A stretch of DNA of 63,816 bases from a virus. This document shows, piece after piece, positions 91-63,702 of the stretch. Positions within the stretch are counted from its first letter, which is position 1; each line of letters begins with the position of its first letter. The translations under genes and the position numbers were made by a program. Below the pieces are notes generated by a model. That model saw only the letters and a list, made by a program, of their open reading frames with translations. It had not been told where the DNA came from and made no database searches. The stretch covers positions 1 to 63,816 of IMG/VR virus record IMGVR_UViG_3300005253_000675; one strand, 5' to 3'.

Positions 91-2745
91 TCACGCCTCC
101 GCCCTCTTGGGCAGGTCAGCCCGCCGCTTGCGCCAGGTGCCCTCCTCGGCTGGCTTGCAGCTGCCCCAGTCCTCTCCAAACTCGATGTCGACCACCACCG
201 GGACGCGGAGCTGAAAGTCCTCCATCTTCTCGCGGAGCACCCGGTTGAACCGGCCCCGGGCGCGCTTCTCCCGGGGCACGCTGAAGTCCAGCTCGTCGTG
301 GACGGTCAGGTGCATGGGCGTCGTCTCCCAGTCCAGGCCGTCGGCGACGGAGATCATCGCCTTCTTCATCAGGTCGGCCGCGCTGCCCTGGAGCAGGGCG
401 TTGAGCGCCTTGTGGGTGTGGGCGTAGCCGCGGCCGCGCTTCTCGAACCGGCGCTTCCGCCCGCCCCAGGTGACGATGTAGCCGCGCTGGTTCGCCCGGC
501 GGTCGGCGCGGTTGTAGAGGCGGCTCACCTCGGGCAGGCGGTCGTGGTACTCCTCCAGGAGGAGCGCCGCCTCGTGGAGGCTGACGCCGAGCTTCGCGGC
601 CATCAGCTTCTTGCCCATCCCGTAGACGATCCCGAAGTTGATGTTCTTGGCCGGGCGTCGCGGGATGCCGACCAGCTCCGCGCATATCTGGTGGAAGTCG
701 ATGTCCGGGTCCTCGTTGTAGGCCCGGGCGAGCTGGCCGCCGGCGTAGTGGGCCAGGTACCGGAACTCGATCTGAGAATTTTTACTAAACACTCCACAAG
801 AGAGGGCGAAGTTGTGGTCCCCCTCCACCGTGACGTGGTAGACGACTCTCTCTCCAGCTGGCTCGACGCTGACGACCCGGTGGTTCAGGGCAGCGGGCGC
901 ACCGCACCGGCGACAGGAGACGCAACGTACATTTACCTGACTCGGCCACTGATAGAACGCGTCACCGCAGTCCACGCAGGTTTGATCTTCCTTGCCGCCT
1001 CGCCAGTTGGGGTTGCCCTTACCCGCGTAGGAGCGGCGCCGTCTCAGGGCCGACCTGAGCACGCGAAGGCGCGTCTGCTCGTCGACGGTCTTGAAGGCGT
1101 GGAGCGCCCTGTGCTCCGTCTGGTCGACGTAAGCCAGGTTCCTCGGCGAGTTGTTTCGCTTGGCCTCGTCTACGTGGTGGACCTCCGCGCCCACCGGCTT
1201 GGGCCCGTGGTACGCCTCGGCCACCAGGTCGTGGGTATAGCGGTACTCGAAGGCGGAGGCGCTGTAGACGGTCTCGTAGCCAGCCCCGGCGGAGCCTCGA
1301 CGAAAGGCGGCTAAGCCGACGCCGGGCCTCAGGTCCTCAACCCTCACCTTGCCGCCGTCTCTCAGCACCATCTCGTGGTCGCCCGTGGCCGTGAACGACC
1401 CCTCGTTGTCGAGCGTGACCTTGAACGTGGGGGCCCTTCCGATCCGCGCCCACCTCGACACCTCTCCCCAGGACACCCGGCCCGCGTGCCAGGTAAACAC
1501 CCTGTCGCCGGCCGTCAGGCTGTCGATTCGCCTGGGCCCGGTGAGGGTCTCCACCATCGTCTCGCCCACCAGACAGTAGTCGGCCTTCTCCCAGACCTGC
1601 GTCCGGCTCGCCGGGACGTAGAGCCCGCGGATCAGCGGCGCCCACTCCTCGTCCCGGGCCGGCACGTTCTGGAGGTTGAGGCCGCCGCCGCTGGAGAACC
1701 GGCCGGACCGGGTGCCGAACCGCGGGTTCCGGAGCGGGTGGAACTCGCCGTGGATGACGCCGTTGGGGTCGACGTTCGCGAGGACGTAGTTGTCGATGAA
1801 CGTGCCCTTGAAGTGCTTGAGCTTCTTCATCCGCGTGATCGCCTCGGCGACCGGGTGCTGCACGTACTCCAGGTCGTCCTTGGTGATCGACGCGTTGCCC
1901 TCCGTGATGCCCTTCTCCAGCATCTTCTCCGTGGGCTGGTTCCGACGGTACGGGAGGCCCAGCTTGTCGAACAGCGTCGCGAGCTGGGCCGTGCTGGTGT
2001 AGCTGACGTCACCGAAGTCACTCTCCCACTTCCGCTCGGCCCGGGTGAGGAGCCGGCCCAGCTTATCCTTCAGGGCCAGCGCCTTGTTCACGTCCACCGG
2101 CACGCCGACCATGTGCATCCGCAGGAGGATCGGGATCAGCCGTAGCTCCATCTCGTAGACGTCGGCCAGTCCCTCCTCGCCCAGCCGCGGGCCGAGGTGG
2201 TCACCGAGCCCCAGCGTGATGCGGCTGTCCCGCTTCGCGTAGGGCTCGACCACGTCGCCGTGGGCCCGCCAGATGTTCTTGGCCTGGGCCTTGCGGGTGG
2301 CGCCGCCGCCGAACGCCTGCGAGCAGAAGTCCCACAGCTCGTCGCCCTCCTTCTCCATCTCGATGTGGCGCTGACCCAGGCCGTCGAGCGTGAGGTCCGG
2401 CTCCAGCTCGTTCAGGAGCGCGGCCATGAACCCGGTCTCCTCCACCCGGGCTCGCGGGAACGGGTGCTCGTGGCCCAGCTCGTAGGCCAGCATCCGGAGG
2501 TCGAAGCCGGCGGAGTGCATGAAGACGGTGAGGTCAGAGCGGTTCACCTCCCGCTTGACCCACCGGAGGACCTCCCGCTTGGAGCAGTTGTTGCCGCCCA
2601 TCTCGTGGCCCCAGCGGTAGTAGTGGTCGGAGCCGTCCGGCAGCGAGACGGAGAGCCCCACCAGCCGGTCGTCGTACGTCACCCCGGTCGTCTCGGTGTC
2701 CAGGCCGATCCGATCGACGCGGGCCAGGTCGACGAACTCAGCCAC
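91..2745 (-). CDS. family A DNA polymerase with 3'-5' exonuclease domain, interrupted by an intein
   Basis: Replicative phage DNA polymerase of the Pol I family, 884 aa as precursor. The N-terminal DEDD-type exonuclease shows DTET at residues 16-19. The polymerase domain has the R..SS..NLQN region near 349-360, motif A split between ADY (388-390) and SQIEFRYLAH (657-666), motif B with K700 and YG (RPAKNINFGIVYG), and motif C HDELDFS at 816-822. Removing residues 391-656 leaves about 618 aa, a normal size for phage Pol A. The start is GTG at 2745, and its first bases overlap the stop of the 82-aa gene upstream by 8 nt, suggesting translational coupling. It is the last gene of a long leftward operon of replication and nucleotide genes. 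Confidence 0.95.
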   Translation of the reverse strand: MAEFVDLARVDRIGLDTETTGVTYDDRLVGLSVSLPDGSDHYYRWGHEMGGNNCSKREVLRWVKREVNRSDLTVFMHSAGFDLRMLAYELGHEHPFPRARVEETGFMAALLNELEPDLTLDGLGQRHIEMEKEGDELWDFCSQAFGGGATRKAQAKNIWRAHGDVVEPYAKRDSRITLGLGDHLGPRLGEEGLADVYEMELRLIPILLRMHMVGVPVDVNKALALKDKLGRLLTRAERKWESDFGDVSYTSTAQLATLFDKLGLPYRRNQPTEKMLEKGITEGNASITKDDLEYVQHPVAEAITRMKKLKHFKGTFIDNYVLANVDPNGVIHGEFHPLRNPRFGTRSGRFSSGGGLNLQNVPARDEEWAPLIRGLYVPASRTQVWEKADYCLVGETMVETLTGPRRIDSLTAGDRVFTWHAGRVSWGEVSRWARIGRAPTFKVTLDNEGSFTATGDHEMVLRDGGKVRVEDLRPGVGLAAFRRGSAGAGYETVYSASAFEYRYTHDLVAEAYHGPKPVGAEVHHVDEAKRNNSPRNLAYVDQTEHRALHAFKTVDEQTRLRVLRSALRRRRSYAGKGNPNWRGGKEDQTCVDCGDAFYQWPSQVNVRCVSCRRCGAPAALNHRVVSVEPAGERVVYHVTVEGDHNFALSCGVFSKNSQIEFRYLAHYAGGQLARAYNEDPDIDFHQICAELVGIPRRPAKNINFGIVYGMGKKLMAAKLGVSLHEAALLLEEYHDRLPEVSRLYNRADRRANQRGYIVTWGGRKRRFEKRGRGYAHTHKALNALLQGSAADLMKKAMISVADGLDWETTPMHLTVHDELDFSVPREKRARGRFNRVLREKMEDFQLRVPVVVDIEFGEDWGSCKPAEEGTWRKRRADLPKRAEA
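778..1575 (-). mobile_element. intein with HNH homing endonuclease inside polymerase motif A
   Basis: Residues 391-656 of the polymerase form a 266-aa intein. It begins CLVGETMV (Cys1), has a TxxH block (TGDH, 454-457) and ends DHNFAL...VFSKN, followed by the +1 residue Ser657. The central part has an HNH core (HHVDEAKRNNSPRNL, about 523-537), an NPNWRGG motif and CxxC pairs (590-614) suggesting a zinc-binding endonuclease segment. Insertion lies between Tyr and Ser of motif A, the metal-binding core of the active site, so splicing is needed for activity. The residue before the terminal Asn is Lys rather than the usual His. The last ~60 bases of the intein reading frame are visibly AT-richer than the flanks. 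Confidence 0.92.
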
Positions 2746-2986
2746 GCGTCCTCGTCCACATCGTCTCGCGGAATTCTCTTGAGCCGATGCCGTACTTCTC
2801 GTGGAGCCGCCGGTTCAGGTCGCGGTCGAAGCAGCTCAGCCGGAGATGACGACCCTCGCGCAGCTCGTAGACCCGGCAGCGCTTGCTGCGGAAGAAGCCG
2901 CTGACCTGGCCGTCCGTCAACCCGATCCCGCGCAGGTAGATGCCGGCGCGCCGTCTCAGCTCTTTCAGGTCGCCGGGGTCAGCCAC
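2738..2986 (-). CDS. hypothetical protein, 82 aa
   Basis: Basic 82-residue protein starting at GTG 2986, rich in Arg and Leu, with a predicted helical N-terminus (ELRRRAGIYLRGIGL). I do not recognise a family. Its start overlaps the ThyX stop, and its stop overlaps the polymerase start, in both cases through the same 8-nt string GTGGCTGA. It therefore sits as a coupled cistron between thyX and the DNA polymerase. Confidence 0.75.
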   Translation of the reverse strand: MADPGDLKELRRRAGIYLRGIGLTDGQVSGFFRSKRCRVYELREGRHLRLSCFDRDLNRRLHEKYGIGSREFRETMWTRTRG

Positions 2987-3830
2987 GGATCGCCTCCAGC
3001 TTGGCCAGGAACTCGTCGGCCTCGCGCCCCTCCAGGCCGTACTCCCGCACCTCGTCTCGCGCCAGGCTCCAGTTGGGCGTGAGCACCAGGCCGCGCAGCG
3101 CCAGCAGCTCCGTTCGGCTGAACGTGACCGCCGCGGTACGGTAGTCGTGGAAGGCGTCGCTGATCGTGGGGAACGCCAGGTGAAAGAAGTAGAGGACCAC
3201 GTTGGCGTACTCGCGGATCTCCTCCTGGGCGTGGCTGTCCAGGCGCAGCCCCAGGAAGTGCATGAGGTTGTGGACGTCGATCTTCCAGAACGCCAGGGTG
3301 TAGGTCGAGAGCGGCAGGTCCTTCCGCGCCTGCTCTCGGGCCACGCCCGCGTCAAGCCGGCTCTTATATATCCACCGCGCTCGTTGCTGGAAGGCCACCT
3401 CCTCCTGGCTCAGCCGCTCGCCGACGTTCGACGCCACGCCCTGATCCGAGCCCTGCCTGTTCGCCTGGCTCTGGAGCCGCCAGGCGTCAGGCGCCGTCAC
3501 GGCCGTGTCGTCGATCGCCGCGGTATACCGCGTCGAGTACTCGTTGACGCTGGCCGTTCGGTGCCGGATCCACTGGCGCCAGGTGTCCATCGGGACCTTG
3601 ACGATGAAGACCATCTCGCACTGCTCGAAGGGCGTCGTGTGGTGGTGCCGCATCATGTAGCGCAGGAGGCGGCGGTCACCCGCCTCGTCTCGCTCGCCGT
3701 GCCTCCCGTAGCTGATGCGGGCGGCGTCCACCACCCGGTCGTCGTCGCCCATCACGTCCACGAGCTGGACGTATCCGTGGGTGCCCACGTCGACCTTCTC
3801 GCCGAGGGCGTCAGTCGCCATCTGATTCAT
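2979..3830 (-). CDS. thyX: flavin-dependent thymidylate synthase ThyX
   Basis: Makes dTMP from dUMP using FAD, NADPH and methylenetetrahydrofolate. The 283-aa protein contains the family signature RHRTASVNEYSTRY (about residues 89-102) and the downstream 'W..D..NL.HFL.LR.D.HAQ.EIR' region typical of ThyX. ATG 3830 is preceded by a strong GGAGG. It overlaps the stop of the upstream ThyA-fold gene by 4 nt (ATGA). Having its own ThyX means the neighbouring ThyA-fold enzyme need not make dTMP. Confidence 0.96.
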   Translation of the reverse strand: MNQMATDALGEKVDVGTHGYVQLVDVMGDDDRVVDAARISYGRHGERDEAGDRRLLRYMMRHHHTTPFEQCEMVFIVKVPMDTWRQWIRHRTASVNEYSTRYTAAIDDTAVTAPDAWRLQSQANRQGSDQGVASNVGERLSQEEVAFQQRARWIYKSRLDAGVAREQARKDLPLSTYTLAFWKIDVHNLMHFLGLRLDSHAQEEIREYANVVLYFFHLAFPTISDAFHDYRTAAVTFSRTELLALRGLVLTPNWSLARDEVREYGLEGREADEFLAKLEAIRG

Positions 3831-5068
3831 CGTTCTCCTCCTTGTTTTATCTCTGCTGTCTGGGTGGCTTGAAGATACGTCTGTGCCGCCTGAAGGAAAG
3901 CCCCGTCGTCGAGCATACCGAGCGAGACGTTACACCCGCGACACAGGAGGCCGCGCACCTCCCCGGTTCGGTGATCGTGGTCGATCACCAACCTACGGTC
4001 GTCACGTTGGCAGATCCCGCAGAGGCCGTTTTGACTCAGCAGAAGTAGTTGATAGTCGTCTGGCCCCAGGTCGTACTTGATCAGGATCGAGCATCGTCGA
4101 CATCGGTGAGATGAGGCGGTCTGGTGTCCCTGCCAGTAGTGCTCATCGGTACGCGGCAGCACGTACCTGCAGGTGTTACACAACAGTCCGTCAGAGTGAT
4201 GAGGTTGAAGCTGGTCTTGATACCATCGCGCTGAGGCTGGGAGGTTGGTGCTCATGCTCCCTTTTCTCCCGGGCACGCCGGCCGCGGTTCTCGCCCATCT
4301 GACTACCCGCGCCCACCGCTGCTCGGCGCGGTCACCGCTGTCCACCTGAAGACGACGAGGTACGACGAACATGGGCGGTAAGTCCTCGGCGCGGCTTGGC
4401 TCGTGGAGCGCGTTTAGCGCGTCCAGGTCACGATCTACGTAGGCGTGTAGGCTTCCCGTTTGATGCAGGTACCAACCGACGTCAACCGCCAGGGCGTAGG
4501 CCACTGCATGTTGAAGGTTTGTGAACATCCAGGCGTCGTAGGGCAGGCCCCAGAAGACGTCGTTTGACCGCATCGTAGCGATCATGTCGAGTCGGCCGTT
4601 CCTGATGAAGAACTGAAACTGGAGCGTACAGGGAATGTCCTTGGACGGTAGCCTGTTGTCCCACGGGCGCCAGATCAACGCGCAGGCTTGACGCGTGTCG
4701 GGGTCTCGTCCCAGCAGCTCGATGAGTCGGGGAAACTGCTCGTAGGTGCGGGGACCGTAGGCGCCGCGCAGACGGTCACTCTCAACGAACTGTGTGAAGT
4801 TCTTCGTGATCGAGATCAGCTGGGCTGCGTCTGAGAGCCCGGCTATCAGCTGTACCGACTCGGCGGCGCCGATCTCTAGTCGTAGCTTACGCCCCGTCCC
4901 GATCGGCACGACGCGTGAGGGGTCGTGAATCAGAATGGTCACGCCTCGTAGCTCCCGGGTCCTGAGGCCTCGGGGTGAGACCTCGTCGCCCTCATCTAGG
5001 ACCTTGCGTACGATCGCGGCGTAGCTGTCCGTCAGGCTGTCGACCTCGAAGTCAGCGACGAAGGGCAT
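3827..5068 (-). CDS. ThyA-superfamily nucleotide hydroxymethylase (dCMP-type by key residue) fused to an endonuclease VII-like HNH domain
   Basis: 413 aa. Residues ~1-250 match the thymidylate synthase / dCMP hydroxymethylase fold: GAYGPR (102-107), nucleophile in IPCTLQFQF (Cys147), MRSNDVFWGLPYD (166-178) and SLHAY (206-210). In E. coli ThyA, Asn177 lies 11 residues after Arg166 and reads the uracil ring; here Arg167 is followed 11 residues later by Asp178. Asp at this position is the known mark of dCMP hydroxymethylases and of engineered dCMP-methylating synthases. I infer dCMP hydroxymethylation, but have no direct proof. Residues ~290-413 are a recombination endonuclease VII-type domain (CGICQ at 350-354, IDHDHRTGEVRGLLCRGCN at 362-380). 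That 3' part is lower in GC than the ThyA part, suggesting a recently fused mobile endonuclease. The stop overlaps thyX. Confidence 0.88.
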   Translation of the reverse strand: MPFVADFEVDSLTDSYAAIVRKVLDEGDEVSPRGLRTRELRGVTILIHDPSRVVPIGTGRKLRLEIGAAESVQLIAGLSDAAQLISITKNFTQFVESDRLRGAYGPRTYEQFPRLIELLGRDPDTRQACALIWRPWDNRLPSKDIPCTLQFQFFIRNGRLDMIATMRSNDVFWGLPYDAWMFTNLQHAVAYALAVDVGWYLHQTGSLHAYVDRDLDALNALHEPSRAEDLPPMFVVPRRLQVDSGDRAEQRWARVVRWARTAAGVPGRKGSMSTNLPASARWYQDQLQPHHSDGLLCNTCRYVLPRTDEHYWQGHQTASSHRCRRCSILIKYDLGPDDYQLLLLSQNGLCGICQRDDRRLVIDHDHRTGEVRGLLCRGCNVSLGMLDDGAFLQAAQTYLQATQTAEIKQGGER

Positions 5069-5951
5069 CGATGGCCTCCTTGATGGGGTAGGGCTCGCCG
5101 TGATGGAAGCGCTTGGCGAACTGAGGGTGGTCCATGGGCTCGTGCTCGAAGCCGTGGGACGTCAGCCAGTCCTGGGCCACCTTGCCCAGCCCGATGATCC
5201 CGAGGGGGTTCAGCCGCTCGATGAAGCTGGGGTCCTCGGGCTGGCCGTCCGGCCTGAGGGCGTTGACCCAGTACAGCCAGCGCTCGTCCACGCCGGTCAG
5301 CTTCTCGGAGAGCCACGCGCTGCAGCCGTTGGTGCTGACGAACGGGAGCGGCGGGCCCGGCAGGTTGACGTTGATCCCGTTGGCCCGCTCGCCGACGAGC
5401 AGGACGGAGGTGTGCTCGAACCAGCCGACGCCCGGGCCGTGGTTGCCGGGCGAGCGGATCGTGACCAGGTCGTCACACAGCCGCTCCACCGTGTGACGGG
5501 TCCAGTCGTACGTGGTCGTGGGCAGCATCGACCCCTGCGTCTTGTAGAGCCGGTAGACCCACTCCAGCTGGTCGAGGGTGTCGAGCATCTCCAGCTGCTC
5601 GCGAGCCAGCCACGCGTCCCGGACGTGCGGGTCGTAGGGCGGGTAGCAGACGACCTGGACCACGCCGCCCAGGCCGAGGAGGGCGCGCTCCAGCACGCGC
5701 TGACCGTCGTCGCCGAGCATGTCGTGCTGCCGGAAGACCGGGCCGTAGATCCGCTCGCCCAGGTGGAGCCGGTCGCAGAGCACGTGCGACTGCTGGTACA
5801 GGTTCCGGGACATCGCGCCCAGCGTCTCGGTCAACACGTTCTGATGGTACGGTCCCTGATGGTGGCGGTTGACGCCGATCCAGCGGTAGGCCAGGTCGTC
5901 GGCCAACGTGCTCTTACCGGCGCCGTCGGGGCCTTCAACTATCGTCAGCAT
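5052..5951 (-). CDS. P-loop deoxynucleotide kinase fused to a uracil-DNA glycosylase-like domain
   Basis: 299 aa. The N-terminal half is a thymidylate/deoxynucleotide kinase: Walker A GPDGAGKST (7-15) and a DRLHLGERIYG segment (60-70) like the DR(W/L)..S..VYG motif of dTMP kinases. From about residue 183 the protein looks like the UDG fold: LLVGERANG, then WVNALRPDG (228-236), IIGLGKVA (252-259) and a late HP (275-276). Together these would phosphorylate a deoxynucleoside monophosphate and carry a base-recognition fold. Whether the second domain has glycosylase activity is unclear. It overlaps the MazG fusion and the ThyA-fold gene on either side, so it is probably co-expressed with them. Confidence 0.8.
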   Translation of the reverse strand: MLTIVEGPDGAGKSTLADDLAYRWIGVNRHHQGPYHQNVLTETLGAMSRNLYQQSHVLCDRLHLGERIYGPVFRQHDMLGDDGQRVLERALLGLGGVVQVVCYPPYDPHVRDAWLAREQLEMLDTLDQLEWVYRLYKTQGSMLPTTTYDWTRHTVERLCDDLVTIRSPGNHGPGVGWFEHTSVLLVGERANGINVNLPGPPLPFVSTNGCSAWLSEKLTGVDERWLYWVNALRPDGQPEDPSFIERLNPLGIIGLGKVAQDWLTSHGFEHEPMDHPQFAKRFHHGEPYPIKEAIDALRR

Positions 5952-6666
5952 CTGTCGTCTCCTTTTCTAGGAACGTCACGGGCTTGCCTCGTGAGCGGGC
6001 GTAGTCGATCTCGGCCTGGGTGGACGAGCCCACGTAGCCGCCCACGTTAACGACGCCCACCTCGTCAGCCAGGTCGATCTTGTGTAGGTGGAGCTGGTCC
6101 AGCTCCGCCTTCGTGGTGGCGTCCACGTCCTCCTCGTCAGCGTGGGAGAAGAACCCCACGCTGAGCACCATGAAGCCCGCGAGGGTGAAGTGCCGGTTCC
6201 AGCGAGCGTAGGCCTCCTTGAACTTCGTGGACCCGCAGAGGCACACGATCCTGGGCCCGGCCGAGTAGACCGGCGCGGGGACGCCGCTCGCTACGGCCCG
6301 GTCGATGATGCGCGCCGAGCGCGGCGGCTCCCAGCCCTCGGGCTTGCCCAGGTCGAACCCGCCGTAGGCGCGCTCGCTGACCACGCGCTCCTTCGACATG
6401 TTGGCTCGCTGGACGTCGGCCCAGAGCGCGTGCCAGGGGAGGCCCATCATCACGGCGGTGCCCATGGCCACGACCACCAGGTCGATCAGCGCGTCTGCCG
6501 CCTCGGGCAGGTCGTCCCGCTGGCAGGCCGCGTCGAACTCCAGCAGCTCCTCGCGCATGAAGCCCGACCGAAAGAGCTGGTCGGTCGTGGACAGGAACGT
6601 GGGGCCCGTCTCGATCGGCAGGCGGTGGTGCTGGTGCATCCGGTAAATGGAATCGAAGTTGGTCAC
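5935..6666 (-). CDS. MazG-like NTP pyrophosphohydrolase fused to a nucleoside 2-deoxyribosyltransferase-like domain
   Basis: 243 aa, GTG start in a GTGA overlap with the methyltransferase stop. Residues ~1-100 are all-alpha MazG/HisE type, with the metal-binding pattern REELLEF (38-44) followed by EAADALIDL (55-63). Residues ~138-236 match the nucleoside 2-deoxyribosyltransferase superfamily: IVCLCGSTKF (140-149) and STQAEIDYARSRGKPV (215-230). A likely role is removing an unwanted canonical dNTP (for example dCTP or dUTP) and breaking or exchanging deoxynucleoside bases so that a modified nucleotide dominates the pool. Substrates are inferred, not seen. Confidence 0.8.
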   Translation of the reverse strand: MTNFDSIYRMHQHHRLPIETGPTFLSTTDQLFRSGFMREELLEFDAACQRDDLPEAADALIDLVVVAMGTAVMMGLPWHALWADVQRANMSKERVVSERAYGGFDLGKPEGWEPPRSARIIDRAVASGVPAPVYSAGPRIVCLCGSTKFKEAYARWNRHFTLAGFMVLSVGFFSHADEEDVDATTKAELDQLHLHKIDLADEVGVVNVGGYVGSSTQAEIDYARSRGKPVTFLEKETTDADDS

Positions 6667-7763
6667 GTGATGATCTCCTCAGTGTGGTCCTTCTCCAGGT
6701 CGACGACGAACCGCCGACCGCGTTGACGCCGGCCGCGTTCCACGGCTCGGCGAAGGTTGTGGCCCAGCCACTCGCCGACGGTCGGCAGCACCGCCTGCGC
6801 CACCTCTGGGTAGCACGCCTCGGGCGTGGGCGGCGAGAACTCGTAGTCCACGGGATAGCCGCAGAGGACCTGCGACTCCTTGACGCTGAGCCAGCGGTCC
6901 TCGGTGGGATGAACGAGGTGGGTGCCGCCCATCATGGTCTTGCACGGCACGTTCGGCCGCAGACGTCGGTACGTGAACGCGGGCCGACCGATGACGGCGC
7001 CCAGCTTGTTGCGGGGCCAGGTCTCCTCGGGCCCGACGGTGGCGCGCATCTTCGCCTCCCAGTGGAGCCGGAGCGCCTGGCCCGGCGGACAGCCCTCCAT
7101 CATCGCCCGATCCCCGGCGCTCTCCATGTGACGGAAGGCGACGTGGGCGCGACACCTGAGGAGACCGGCCGCTCGCCAGGCCCGCGTGACCGAGACCTGC
7201 TGGTCAGGCTCCAGGTGAGGGTACTCCCAGTCGATCTTGACGCGGTGCGCCACGAAGAAGAACCGGCGGCGCTGCTGGGGCAGCCCGACGTGGACGCCGT
7301 TCAGGAGGACGTAGCTCACGGAGTAGCCCAGCTCCACCGCCTCCTCGGCCAGCTCGTCACACAGCTCGCGTCCCCGGTGGAAGGCGCCCTGCACGGACTC
7401 CCAGCACCAGACCGACGGGCGCAGGTACCGGATGGCGTCGAAGGCGTTGTAGACGCAGCTGACCCGGGGGTCGTGACGATAGTTGTCCTTGAAGTCGTGG
7501 TCGATCATCCGCTTGGGTCGGATGCCGGCGCCCGACCACGGGGCGCAGGGCGGGTTGCAGAACACCACCTTCACGCCGCGGCCGCGGTACGCGTCGAAGG
7601 GCCACGTCTCCGGGTTCGTGTGGACCTCGATACCGGGCATGTTCTGCCGGACCGTGTCCACGCCGAACGGGCCGTCCTCGAGATGGCCCAGCACGTCGAA
7701 CCCGGCGGCGCGCATGCCGATGGAAAAACCGCCTCCAAAAATATATATTCCGAGCGCGTTCAT
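6663..7763 (-). CDS. DNA cytosine-C5 methyltransferase
   Basis: 366 aa. Motif I-like IFGGGFSIGMRAAG (8-21), catalytic motif IV NPPCAPWS (70-77, Cys73), motif VI as WESV (121-124) where ENV is usual, and motif VIII GLPQQRRRFFFVA (160-172). A target-recognition segment (~175-290) and the C-terminal motifs follow. Transfers a methyl group, or acts on cytosine C5, in DNA; the Asn-to-Ser change in ENV could alter activity. It lies in the nucleotide-modification block, so it may protect phage DNA from restriction or prepare cytosine for further change. Start ATG 7763 overlaps the upstream small gene (ATGA). Confidence 0.9.
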   Translation of the reverse strand: MNALGIYIFGGGFSIGMRAAGFDVLGHLEDGPFGVDTVRQNMPGIEVHTNPETWPFDAYRGRGVKVVFCNPPCAPWSGAGIRPKRMIDHDFKDNYRHDPRVSCVYNAFDAIRYLRPSVWCWESVQGAFHRGRELCDELAEEAVELGYSVSYVLLNGVHVGLPQQRRRFFFVAHRVKIDWEYPHLEPDQQVSVTRAWRAAGLLRCRAHVAFRHMESAGDRAMMEGCPPGQALRLHWEAKMRATVGPEETWPRNKLGAVIGRPAFTYRRLRPNVPCKTMMGGTHLVHPTEDRWLSVKESQVLCGYPVDYEFSPPTPEACYPEVAQAVLPTVGEWLGHNLRRAVERGRRQRGRRFVVDLEKDHTEEIIT

Positions 7764-21220: not shown

Positions 21221-21484
21221 TTATGGTCCGGTCTCGTCACAGCCCAGCGGGCAGGTCAGCACGCTGGGGTTCCGGCCGCGGAAGACGAGCTTCGACCCGC
21301 AGTGGTCACAGTCGCCCACCTCGCCCTCCCAGCCCTCGTCCAGGTGGCGCTCCGCCGTGGCCAGGGCCCGCAGCCGCTGGGCCATGCGCCCCAGCTCCTC
21401 GCGGCTCTGGCTGATCACCGCGTCCCGGAGGCCGTCGAGCGCGTCGGCCACCTCGCGGAGCGCCTCGCCCGACGTCTCAGCCAT
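21221..21484 (-). CDS. hypothetical zinc-ribbon protein, 87 aa
   Basis: Helical first half, then CDHCGSKLVF...CPLGC, a four-Cys zinc ribbon. Overlaps the dCMP deaminase gene by 8 nt. Confidence 0.68.
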   Translation of the reverse strand: MAETSGEALREVADALDGLRDAVISQSREELGRMAQRLRALATAERHLDEGWEGEVGDCDHCGSKLVFRGRNPSVLTCPLGCDETGP

Positions 21485-22076
21485 CGACCGGCCGCTTCAG
21501 CTCGCCCGCGCCCTCGTAGACGCTGGCCACGGCCAGTTCGTAGTTCGCGGAGCCGCAGCTGGGGCAGTAGCCGCCGGCGTGGAGGGCGGGGTCGGCCTCG
21601 TACTTCGTCCGGCAGTGGAGACACAGCCGCAGCTCGGGCTCCTCGGCCTGGGCGCCGGTCCCGGAGCCGAGCACCCTCACCTCCACGCCGCCGGCCCTCA
21701 GGATCGCGACGCCGGCCTCCTCGTCACGGTGCCGTCCCTGGTACCACACGGTCTCGACGTTCCCCTGGTTCACGATCCGCTTGGCGCAGGCGGTACAGGG
21801 GGAGATCGTCGTGAACAGGACCAGGCCGCGCTCCTCGGTCCGGAGCTTGACCAGCGCGTTGTCCTCGGCGTGGAGGCAGCCGCAGTTCCCGGGCTCCTCG
21901 CGATCGCAGGCGTGGGGGCCGCCGCGGTAGTTGCCGTTGTAGCCGATGGAGTAGATCGCGGTCAGCCGGGCGTCGGCGACCACGCAGCCGACCTTGAGAC
22001 GGGCGCACGTAGCCCGGCGGGCCATGAGCCTCGCCACGCACATCATCGTCTCCTCCATCGAGGGGCGGTCGGTCAC
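21477..22076 (-). CDS. dCMP deaminase-like protein with C-terminal zinc ribbon
   Basis: 199 aa, GTG start. Cytidine/deoxycytidylate deaminase core with HAE (69-71) and SPCTACAK (92-99). An extra CxxC pair set (CLHCRTKY...CPSCGS) sits near the C-terminus. dCMP deaminases convert dCMP to dUMP and so feed thymidylate synthesis. In phages with modified cytosine the enzyme also sets the dCMP:dUMP balance. It may work with ThyX and the ThyA-fold enzyme at 3-5 kb. Confidence 0.88.
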   Translation of the reverse strand: MTDRPSMEETMMCVARLMARRATCARLKVGCVVADARLTAIYSIGYNGNYRGGPHACDREEPGNCGCLHAEDNALVKLRTEERGLVLFTTISPCTACAKRIVNQGNVETVWYQGRHRDEEAGVAILRAGGVEVRVLGSGTGAQAEEPELRLCLHCRTKYEADPALHAGGYCPSCGSANYELAVASVYEGAGELKRPVDG

Positions 22077-22116: not shown

Positions 22117-22323
22117 TTATCTCAGTCTGCGCCTCAAGGCAAGCGCGCGAAGATTTTCAAGTTCCTCGGCACGTTCTGGGCTCAGTGCTTCGCCTGGATT
22201 TAGGTAGCGGTCACCGTTGGGATCACGAGCGCGAACGCCAAACCCAAGCCGATGCGTTAGAGGATGCTTGCGTTCTCGGTTGCGTTCCACCAGCGCGCGT
22301 AATTCGTGCTCTTGAAGTCTCAC
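22117..22323 (-). CDS. hypothetical protein, 68 aa
   Basis: GTG 22323 start in a GTGA overlap with the 117-aa gene. Highly charged, Arg-rich helical ends. No family recognised. Confidence 0.6.
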   Translation of the reverse strand: MRLQEHELRALVERNRERKHPLTHRLGFGVRARDPNGDRYLNPGEALSPERAEELENLRALALRRRLR

Positions 22324-22673
22324 AGGTTCATCCTCGTCTTCTTGCCGGTCGGTCGCAGGCGTCGGGTCCACTCCTCGGTCTCCTGGTCGGTGAGCACGTC
22401 GGCCGCCTTCTGGGAGACGCGCTCGAAGTGCTCGGTGTGGGGTCGCAGCCCCAGGGTCTCGCCGCGCACGTAGTGGGCCTTCCACTCGCGCCAGGCCCTC
22501 ACTATCGCCTCGCCGTCTCCAGGGCGCACGGGGAGGCCGCGGAGAGCCTGGTTCACGGTGTGGTAGCTGAGGTCCAGCTTGAGCTTGGCCGCGGCGTTCG
22601 CGGCCGTGCCGAAGAGGGACGTGATCTCGGCCCGCACGGCCTTGGCGATCGCGTAGGTCTTCTGGGTGGTCAC
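22320..22673 (-). CDS. putative HTH regulatory protein, paralogue of the 28558-28926 product
   Basis: 117 aa. The segment LFGTAANAAAKLKLD...ALRGLPV...W..WK.HYVRG aligns with LFGTIANAQRLLRCG...ALRGNPV...W..WK.LYVRG in the 122-aa protein at the start of this operon. The predicted helical bundle suggests a helix-turn-helix DNA-binding protein; this is inference. It is one of a pair of related proteins in the same operon. Confidence 0.65.
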   Translation of the reverse strand: MTTQKTYAIAKAVRAEITSLFGTAANAAAKLKLDLSYHTVNQALRGLPVRPGDGEAIVRAWREWKAHYVRGETLGLRPHTEHFERVSQKAADVLTDQETEEWTRRLRPTGKKTRMNL

Positions 22674-27158: not shown

Positions 27159-27364
27159 GGTCGAGACGACCCGGCCTTCGCGTGACCGGGCAGCTTGCCC
27201 TGCGAGCTAAGATGGCCCGACAGGCCACGCGCCGAGGGGAAGCCCTGGCCGCAGGTGCACCAGGCCACCCGGGGAAGGGCCGCGTACCAGCACGGTAGAC
27301 AGCGGCCAGCTGCCCCGGGGAAGTCGGCCGACGGCCGCTTTCCGCAGGTCCGGCAGGAGCTCAC
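27149..27364 (-). CDS. zinc-finger hypothetical protein, 71 aa
   Basis: CRTCGKRP...CLPCW zinc ribbon then WCTCGQGFPSARGLSGHLSS, close to a C2H2-like finger. ATGA overlap with the hypermodification gene stop. Confidence 0.68.
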   Translation of the reverse strand: MSSCRTCGKRPSADFPGAAGRCLPCWYAALPRVAWCTCGQGFPSARGLSGHLSSQGKLPGHAKAGSSRPWR

Positions 27365-28266
27365 GAGGCCACCTTGAACCGGCGCCGCAGGTTCTGGCCG
27401 TCGGTGCGTCGGGCCTCGTGGTACCGGCCGAACTCGCAGAGGCAGTTCTCCACGTCGGAGCGGTCCAGGTAGACGTAGTCGAGCGCGCCGTGGTCCCAGC
27501 TGGGCATCCGGCCCTCGAGGAACCGGTCCTGGCGGCCGCGGAGCCAGACGAGGCGCTCATTGTAGCCCGCCTCGCCGGGGCCGCGGTCGGGCGCGTTGTC
27601 GACGAGGTCCATCCCCCGCCGCGCGCCGGGCCCGAGCAGGGCGTACCCGTCGTTGGAGTGCGGCAGGTTTAACCCGTTCTCCGGGTAGCTGAGGTCCAGG
27701 CAGGTCTGGTAGGCGACGAAGGGGCCGATCCCCTGGAACTCACGTAGGAGCCGGAGCAGCTGACGCCGGTCCAGGAGCGTCCAGTCAGGCGCCTCGTCCT
27801 GGCGACGAGCGGCCAGCTCCGCCGCGGCCCGGGCCCAGAGCGTCGGCCAGCTGTCCCGCTTGGGGCCCGGGATGCCGGCGTTCCCGAGGAGGTACGCGCC
27901 CGTGTACGGATGGCCGGGGCCGAAGTCCGCCATCCGGGCCCTGACGTCATCCGCGTTCGAGAGACCGGCCTCGTCGATCGTCAGCCACCCCACGTGCGCC
28001 TTCGAGTCCTCGCGCAGCCCCTGGCGATACGCCAGGACGTTCAGGAGCACCTCGTCGTTCGACGCGTCTAGGTCGAGGCGGCCCTCGGCGACGTGGTCCA
28101 CCAGCCAGGCCGTCCCGGGGTCGAGCCGCCGGTAGACGTTCGTGAACCGGTAGGCGCGGAGGTACGGGTCGTCGGTCCACGGCGACGGCCGGCCCTCGAC
28201 GTGGCGGGCGTACCAGATCCGGTGTCGCTCCCGGACCCAGTGCCAGAACAGCTTCTCGTTGGTCAC
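27361..28266 (-). CDS. DNA base-hypermodification protein (5-hmdU DNA kinase helical domain / thymine pyrophosphorylase-like family)
   Basis: 301 aa from GTG 28266 (GTGA overlap). Residues 29-49 (PWTDDPYLRAY then RFTNVYRRLD), FQGIGPFVAYQ (177-187) and ENCLCEFGRYHEAR (273-286) match, from memory, the signatures of the family described as alpha-glutamyl/putrescinyl thymine pyrophosphorylases, which includes the helical domain of 5-hmdU DNA kinases in hypermodified phages. There is no fused P-loop here. Members act on hydroxymethylated pyrimidines already in DNA, forming or displacing an activated ester to attach other groups. It lies away from the nucleotide-metabolism block at 3-8 kb but likely works downstream of it. 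Confidence 0.8.
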   Translation of the reverse strand: MTNEKLFWHWVRERHRIWYARHVEGRPSPWTDDPYLRAYRFTNVYRRLDPGTAWLVDHVAEGRLDLDASNDEVLLNVLAYRQGLREDSKAHVGWLTIDEAGLSNADDVRARMADFGPGHPYTGAYLLGNAGIPGPKRDSWPTLWARAAAELAARRQDEAPDWTLLDRRQLLRLLREFQGIGPFVAYQTCLDLSYPENGLNLPHSNDGYALLGPGARRGMDLVDNAPDRGPGEAGYNERLVWLRGRQDRFLEGRMPSWDHGALDYVYLDRSDVENCLCEFGRYHEARRTDGQNLRRRFKVAS

Positions 28267-28557: not shown

Positions 28558-28926
28558 CTATTTTGCGGAGCTCTCCGCGAAGCGGTGAAACCGGCCCCTC
28601 CGCCGCTTCCACTCGGCGACCTCCTGCTCCGACAGCCGGTCCATCGCCCGGTAGGCCAGCTCGATCGTCTCCGGTAGGCGGAACGTCATGTCCGGGGAGA
28701 AGGCCAGGCCCCTCACGTAGAGCTGCTTCCAGGTGCGCCAGGCCACCACGACGTCGTCGGCGTGAGACTTCGGCACCGGGTTTCCGCGGAGCGCCTCTCG
28801 CATCACCTGGTAGGGCACGTGACCACAGCGCAGCAGGCGCTGGGCGTTGGCGATCGTGCCGAACAGCGGTAGGACCTGGTCGCTGATGTCTTCGTCCACG
28901 GTGAGCTTCTCTTGGTGCTGACCCAT
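28558..28926 (-). CDS. putative HTH regulatory protein, paralogue of the 22320-22673 product
   Basis: 122 aa. Shares LFGT.AN, ALRG.PV and W..WK..YVRG with the 117-aa protein. First gene of the 19-29 kb leftward operon, where an autoregulator would sit. TAGGAGAGAGACCC precedes ATG 28926 with the same 8-nt GGAG spacing. Confidence 0.65.
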   Translation of the reverse strand: MGQHQEKLTVDEDISDQVLPLFGTIANAQRLLRCGHVPYQVMREALRGNPVPKSHADDVVVAWRTWKQLYVRGLAFSPDMTFRLPETIELAYRAMDRLSEQEVAEWKRRRGRFHRFAESSAK

Positions 28927-61700: not shown

Positions 61701-62111
61701 TCAGTCTCCTGTCTCTGAGAGGGTGGGGAACGAGGCACGTCGGTTCCAGGCGTTGAACACGTGGAGGCGGTTCTCGTGATGGACGGCCTGCTTCTGGGAG
61801 TGCTCCTTGCCGTAGATGTCTGTCCACGTATGGGTCCGGTGGCCGTCTCGCGTTGGTCCGCTGGCGTCGCAGTTGGGGCACCATAGAGAGCCGGGATCGC
61901 CCGTCTCCGCCGGCTCAAAGAACGTGGGCTCCTCGCCGCAGAACGGGCAGGGCTTCGCGTACTTGGTCCGGCACCGCTGGCGCTGGGGCTCGGCCCAGAC
62001 GGCCGAGACGGTCAGCGCGTCGCTGACCCTCACGTTACACAGAGGCAAGCCCTCGTCGTCCAGATAGTGAGTCTGGCCGGTAGGGCTCGCCCCAACTCTC
62101 GGGGCTGTCAT
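61701..62111 (-). CDS. Lar-like restriction alleviation zinc protein, 136 aa
   Basis: KPCPFCGEEPTFFEP...LWCPNCDASGP...HVFNAWNRRA matches the Lar/restriction-alleviation zinc-ribbon pattern (CPFCG...C..C...A...WN.R). May bind host restriction or methylation systems, but the family is broad. Confidence 0.65.
   Translation of the reverse strand: MTAPRVGASPTGQTHYLDDEGLPLCNVRVSDALTVSAVWAEPQRQRCRTKYAKPCPFCGEEPTFFEPAETGDPGSLWCPNCDASGPTRDGHRTHTWTDIYGKEHSQKQAVHHENRLHVFNAWNRRASFPTLSETGD
61703..61714 (-). promoter_or_regulatory. start-associated leader (AGACAGGAGACT)
   Basis: Lies inside the end of the 136-aa gene; GGAG is 8 nt before ATG 61697 of the 381-aa gene. Confidence 0.6.
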
Positions 62112-63186: not shown

Positions 63187-63702
63187 TTATTTATCAGACG
63201 CATAGACGCCTCGTCGCCCTCCCCAAGGGTGATGCGAAGCCTTGATCTTGGCTAGGCATGCTGGGCACTCCAGCTTGGGTCGTCCACGTCCATCGTACGG
63301 CGCCTCGTCGCCGCAGCATCGACACATTGGAGGTTGACATCTGATCCCCACGTGCCTCGTCTGATAGTCGTGTTTGTACTGCCGAGCGGCTGGACGCCGG
63401 TTCTTATTGTAGCGGCGCTTGTGCCGTCTCCAATACCGGCGTTGCCTCTCTCGTGTCTCCTCTGGGATCAGCCGTCGGCGTCTGTCTTTCATAGCCTTCT
63501 TACAGGCCGCACATCTGAGCGCCACCCTCAGCCGACCCTCTACCCGATTCGGGCAGTCCTGACACAGGCCGCGTCGTCGTCGAGCCTCACAGCCACAGGT
63601 GAGACCGCCCTCGCGTACGACGCCCATGCCGTCGGTCTCGAAGCTGACGGCCTGACGTTTCCTACAGTGCTTGCACGTGAGAAAGGTCTTCTCCATCACC
63701 AC
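63187..63702 (-). CDS. Cys-rich putative mobile endonuclease-like protein, copy 2
   Basis: 171 aa, GTG start after GGGAGG. Paralogue of the 30487-30990 product, with the same order of Cys pairs, basic helix and RRPAARQYKHDY block. Separated by over 32 kb, which fits a mobile gene family. Confidence 0.7.
   Translation of the reverse strand: MVMEKTFLTCKHCRKRQAVSFETDGMGVVREGGLTCGCEARRRRGLCQDCPNRVEGRLRVALRCAACKKAMKDRRRRLIPEETRERQRRYWRRHKRRYNKNRRPAARQYKHDYQTRHVGIRCQPPMCRCCGDEAPYDGRGRPKLECPACLAKIKASHHPWGGRRGVYASDK

Follow-up and report, generated by a model that had tools for sequence, protein, structure and literature searches.

The HMUDK_hel gene and its family

The window, i.e. the whole stretch of DNA analysed here, is an entire virus record from IMG/VR, 63,816 bases long. 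It encodes terminase, portal, tail and amidase proteins as well as replication functions, and a search for a long direct terminal repeat found none. The open reading frame at 27361-28266 (minus strand), which encodes a protein of 301 residues, is real. It starts with the GTG at 28266, which overlaps the stop codon of the upstream open reading frame and is preceded by GGAGAAGG, a strong Shine-Dalgarno sequence, so that the limits set in the initial annotation were correct, and its third-position GC is 0.93. The four motifs by which the gene had been recognized (PWTDDP, FTNVYRRLD, GIGPFVAYQ and CEFGRY) are all present.

The protein belongs to the HMUDK_hel/aGPT-Pplase1 family, as originally claimed from its likeness to the 5-hmdU DNA kinase helical domain and pyrophosphorylase group. 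Its sole Pfam match is to HMUDK_hel (the 5-hmdU DNA kinase helical domain, PF18723; E=4e-35, 122 bits versus a cut-off of 25), with positions 5-275 of 281, hence the whole domain, aligned; a search for the ADDT amino-acid transferase (PF18724) gave no match in the window. Among PHROGs it falls in phrog_2396 (E=1.2e-39), of unknown function. Identity with family members is 22-32%, with conservation of all 23 columns that are invariant in an alignment of eight diverse members and of the 11 columns invariant across 64 members; the family-invariant residues found in the two alignments include R14, R46, D49, R81, F183, D191, the GPG at 212-214, C277 and E278. With tblastn, 302 phage records were matched, those of Salmonella, Klebsiella and Pseudomonas phages included, with identity below 60% in all, and a single-protein scan of viral contigs revealed no direct relatives. 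NCBIfam held no model matching the protein, a PADLOC defence-system search gave no match, and no solved structure matched it by sequence. An AlphaFold2 model built with 64 sequences (mean pLDDT, 89.2; pTM, 0.88) was compared with the PDB by Foldseek, yielding endonuclease III, Mag1, AlkA-like and OGG glycosylases as top matches, all weak (E of 0.07 or more). The model is thus coherent with a glycosylase-like HhH fold, as judged from individually non-significant matches.

Some 20 kb separate the gene from the nucleotide block (2979-7763), confirming the distance initially noticed, and a dCMP deaminase gene (21477-22076; PF00383 E=1.1e-14; phrog_174) is 5 kb away; all are on the minus strand. 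Two small paralogous proteins, 36% identical and with no Pfam match, are encoded at 22320-22673 and 28558-28926 (both minus strand), the latter two genes upstream of the HMUDK_hel gene. Elsewhere in the window are found a family A DNA polymerase (91-2745, minus strand) with an apparent intein, as its residues 391-655, flanked by polymerase stretches, match Hint, HNH_3 and intein-splicing models; two paralogues rich in cysteine, 52% identical and far apart in the genome (30487-30990, plus strand, and 63187-63702, minus strand); and a homologue of the Lar restriction alleviation protein (61701-62111, minus strand; PF14354 E=9.5e-8).

The nucleotide module and the base it may serve

The only ThyA homologue of the window, encoded at 3827-5068 (minus strand), is a ThyA-superfamily pyrimidine hydroxymethylase (Thymidylat_synt E=2.5e-19) with catalytic Cys147, which finds its best PDB match in CMP 5-hydroxymethylase. 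A recombination endonuclease VII domain (Endonuclease_7 E=1e-18; residues 328-400) is fused to it in frame at the C-terminal side, the hydroxymethylase core being complete up to the fusion and retaining its active-site motifs. Alignment with T4 gp42 and the M6, ViI and Goe26 enzymes places Asp178 (GLPYDAW; codon at 4535-4537, minus strand) at the position separating dUMP from dCMP enzymes, a role known from thymidylate synthase and T4 dCMP hydroxymethylase. In the alignment this residue is Asn in all the hmU-phage enzymes compared (M6, ViI and SPO1-like Goe26) and in Pam3, Sonora, RHph_TM26 and Ab18, and Asp in T4 gp42, SirVictor, AXL3, DSL-LC01, ctUtU524 and the window enzyme. Residue and similarity together support a dCMP-type hydroxymethylase, although an Asp-type enzyme could instead produce 5-methyl- or 5-hydroxy-dCMP. 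The suspicion, voiced in the initial annotation, that the upstream enzyme is cytosine-specific is therefore supported at the gene level by the Asp/Asn position.

Next to it the window encodes ThyX, the flavin-dependent thymidylate synthase (2979-3830, minus strand; PF02511 E=5.2e-47; TIGR02170, 172.6 bits versus a cut-off of 87.9), a separate source of dTMP, so that the ThyA homologue is not needed for dTMP. On the other side, also on the minus strand, follow a P-loop deoxynucleotide kinase with a C-terminal domain (5052-5951) and an NTP pyrophosphohydrolase (5935-6666; PRA-PH/MazG-like, PF01503 E=7e-11; phrog_671), proposed to act as a pool cleaner of the dCTPase type. The kinase is assigned to phrog_761 (thymidylate kinase, E=1.9e-10) and its predicted structure matches the folds of thymidylate and deoxynucleoside kinases (YorR, E=2.5e-6); since it is also the sole Walker A kinase-like open reading frame in the window, it is best read, by fold and by linkage, as a putative hm-dNMP kinase. 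Its C-terminal domain (residues about 180-299) carries a conserved HPQxxKRF motif, has no Pfam match and is found apart from the kinase in two records (L179 and L182), both of which hold an HMUDK_hel match. The block is completed by a C5-cytosine methyltransferase homologue (6663-7763, minus strand; PF00145 E=2.5e-22) with PPC and QxRxR present and ESV replacing the usual ENV; in several relatives, as in the window, such a homologue with ESV adjoins the base-modification block.

As in the T4-like 5-hmdC pathway, a predicted dNTP pyrophosphohydrolase and a deoxynucleotide kinase adjoin the Asp-type hydroxymethylase, and the logic of these two activities is common to T4 and the window. T4 gp42 and the window enzyme also share Asp at the specificity site and the PCT active-site motif, but they belong to separate sequence lineages, that of the window being fused to Endonuclease VII. 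Also unlike T4, the window proteins compared with Pfam included no glycosyltransferase. A parallel in gene order is offered by Stenotrophomonas phage AXL3 (gp27-gp31), which has the same succession of methyltransferase, NTP pyrophosphohydrolase, kinase and Asp-type ThyA homologue, a kinase of the same architecture (34% identity), a dCMP deaminase and ThyX (gp50). AXL3 differs in that HMUDK_hel was found neither among the tblastn matches listed nor by profile in 37.5 kb of AXL3. Of 37 restriction enzymes, TasI and Tru1I alone cut AXL3 DNA (PMC7504290). The sites of both contain A/T only, a pattern compatible with modification of C (or G) and consistent with the Asp-type reading. AXL3 gp28 (L006:14943-15752) is annotated as a thymidylate synthase, yet it is Asp-type; judged by sequence, dCMP hydroxymethylase is the likelier assignment and would account for the G/C-specific restriction resistance.

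The thymidine hypermodification cassette of Pseudomonas phage M6 provides the opposite term of comparison. M6 gp055 (aGPT-Pplase1) contains the same Pfam domain as the window protein (E=8.1e-56 for gp055), and the two genomes share the invariant residues of HMUDK_hel, a dCMP deaminase and a ThyA-superfamily hydroxymethylase. The latter is Asn-type in M6 and Asp-type in the window, and M6 has an adjacent HMUDK P-loop kinase (gp054), ADDT, PLP and radical SAM genes, which the window does not. Indeed, searches of the window for the HMUDK_HMUD1 P-loop kinase (PF18748) and for an Asn-type (dUMP) hydroxymethylase gave, as for ADDT, no match. The original interpretation was accordingly borne out in part: the family and the cytosine-type upstream enzyme stood, while a thymine reading fits poorly here.

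Recurrence of the pairing among phages

In a survey of 80 IMG/VR loci with HMUDK_hel, ThyA homologues with a readable specificity residue within 10 kb were Asn-type at 52 of 53 loci and Asp-type at one (L063), near-identical contigs being included in the survey counts. For loci with no ThyA homologue nearby, the search was extended to the whole record, which revealed Asp-type enzymes in L024, L049, L035 and L091; those found in L083 and L088 were Asn-type. A second scan brought 14 further Asn-type loci and, over whole records, Asp-type enzymes in L245 and L270 and Asn-type enzymes in L241, L244 and L250. By contrast, at 80 loci with the kinase type of the window the ThyA homologue was Asp-type in all 73 readable cases (Fisher p=6e-35 for the Asp/Asn split between the two sets, uncorrected for relatedness). 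With Asn usual beside HMUDK_hel and Asp beside this kinase type, the window unites two systems that as a rule occur separately; HMUDK_hel is indeed rare among records with the kinase-type module of the window (3/49), and in the related record G060 the replication module is present but HMUDK_hel is not.

The combination nevertheless recurs. An Asp-type enzyme is paired with HMUDK_hel in at least eight other viral records (L024, L063, L049, L035, L091, L146, L245 and L270) and in Microbacterium phages, a group in which HMUDK_hel was found in 42 records and where the five phages checked (SirVictor, Pikmin, Neferthena, Chepli and Quartz) were all Asp-type. The cultured Microbacterium phages SirVictor, Golden, Pikmin and Neferthena (about 40 kb) resemble the window in having both genes. 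Their HMUDK_hel proteins lie on a branch distant from that of the window; in SirVictor the HMUDK_hel gene is adjoined by Ploopntkinase3, and some of these phages have an annotated glycosyltransferase. A single origin of the Asp-type HMUDK_hel proteins was rejected (AU p=0.0003 with eight held together); long branches in the tree make the precise position of the window protein uncertain.

The most telling relative is L245 (IMGVR_UViG_3300048588_000315). Beside its Asp-type ThyA homologue are an NTP pyrophosphohydrolase, a kinase and a deaminase, and HMUDK_hel (E=1.9e-40) stands together with a kinase, a radical SAM/SPASM protein and a methyltransferase. This second kinase carries an HMUDK-like INVRGTNGAGKTT motif with a PF18748 match (E=1.2e-4) below the cut-off. 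The segment L245:3312-7680, which comprises HMUDK_hel, a 326-residue open reading frame, the HMUDK-like kinase, the radical SAM/SPASM protein and the methyltransferase, is a candidate cytosine hypermodification cassette. In L024, also an Asp-type record, a UDG-superfamily protein (L024:10878-11504; PF03167 E=3.7e-9) is encoded directly downstream of HMUDK_hel.

No residue of HMUDK_hel was found to track the base type. Position 88, which is Thr in 37 of 43 Asn-type and none of five Asp-type proteins of a first set, was dropped as a base-specificity residue since Thr is also present in L035, L091 and most Microbacterium proteins. Likewise, a missing HMUDK kinase was not used as a mark of Asp-type records, since the same test detected one in no more than 12 of 36 Asn-type records and since in L035 the record-level search had missed a real HMUDK kinase (34.6 bits).

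A possible role in cytosine modification

Family membership, the presence of the Asp-type hydroxymethylase with its module and the recurrent pairing are established by computation. From these we infer the presence of hmC in DNA, the acceptor base and the phosphoryl-transfer reaction. The proposal, which we regard as evenly poised, is that the protein at 27361-28266 is a hypermodification enzyme of the HMUDK_hel family in a phage with modified cytosine, most likely hmC, and acts on hmC in DNA. The NTP pyrophosphohydrolase would lower dCTP, the Asp-type ThyA homologue would hydroxymethylate dCMP, the P-loop kinase (5052-5951) would phosphorylate hm-dCMP and the polymerase would incorporate hm-dCTP into DNA, with dCMP deaminase and ThyX maintaining the ordinary supply of dTTP. 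In the finished DNA, HMUDK_hel may then target the hydroxymethyl group of hmC, by phosphoryl transfer or activation, and the product would be a bulkier, charged base resisting host nucleases. A stand-alone role of HMUDK_hel is plausible, since 58 of 88 of its loci lack a compact P-loop protein within 2.5 kb.

The main evidence against the hmC reading is that the one 5-HMUDK tested phosphorylated hmU and not hmC (PMC6457204); the lack of an HMUDK kinase and of ADDT in the window, the rarity of HMUDK_hel with the module and the failure to find an HMUDK_hel residue that follows the base type are further points against it. The same hmU specificity favours the chief rival, according to which a thymine-type substrate is kept and HMUDK_hel acts on some hmU, formed by dCMP deaminase acting on hm-dCMP or by an Asp-type enzyme promiscuous enough to accept dUMP. 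A dCMP deaminase is present, and most HMUDK_hel relatives adjoin Asn-type enzymes. We nevertheless consider this explanation unlikely, by taking into account that the thymidine-pathway partners (Asn-type enzyme, HMUDK kinase and ADDT) were not found in the window, that ThyX implies that ordinary dTMP is wanted, and that HMUDK_hel is retained as well in Microbacterium phages whose enzymes resemble T4 gp42.

A non-kinase use of the glycosylase-like fold (for instance to remove a base, to transfer a different group or to bind modified DNA) would be in keeping with HhH-GPD DNA glycosylases being the best solved-structure matches and with the domain often standing alone, as at the 58 loci mentioned above. 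The weakness of the fold matches, the fusion of HMUDK P-loop kinase and HMUDK_hel in one protein in Goe26, and the adjacency of the two in M6, Sonora, Pam3 and others speak against it, and we hold it to be rather improbable. Still less credible is that the gene is a recent and selectively unimportant acquisition uncoupled from the base chemistry of the phage. Its distance from the nucleotide block, its scarcity among module records and its absence from G060 would agree with such an origin, but the open reading frame is intact, with high third-position GC, a strong Shine-Dalgarno sequence and all invariant residues, and the pairing is repeated in separate lineages.

Under the hmC reading, a broader and more tentative proposal, to which we lean slightly less than to its contrary, is that HMUDK_hel was recruited several times by hmC phages, opening a kinase-dependent route, parallel to that of thymidine, by which cytosine is hypermodified (to phosphomethyl-cytosine or derivatives); cassettes of the L245 type would be an elaborated form of it. 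Both the HMUDK_hel family and hmC phages are known. The pairing of HMUDK_hel with the Asp-type enzyme, its recurrence and the Asp/Asn predictor rule were not found described in the literature searched, the primary hypermodification papers being outside its scope; nor did the phrase 'hypermodified cytosine' return anything there, which is weak evidence for novelty. So far 5-hydroxymethyl-DNA kinases have been tied to thymidine hypermodification. If the family also works on cytosine, phages would have a second chemical handle with which to disguise their DNA, and the Asp or Asn of the neighbouring ThyA homologue would predict the modified base, a question that can be tested in sequenced and cultured Microbacterium phages with the same pairing, namely SirVictor, Golden, Pikmin and Neferthena.
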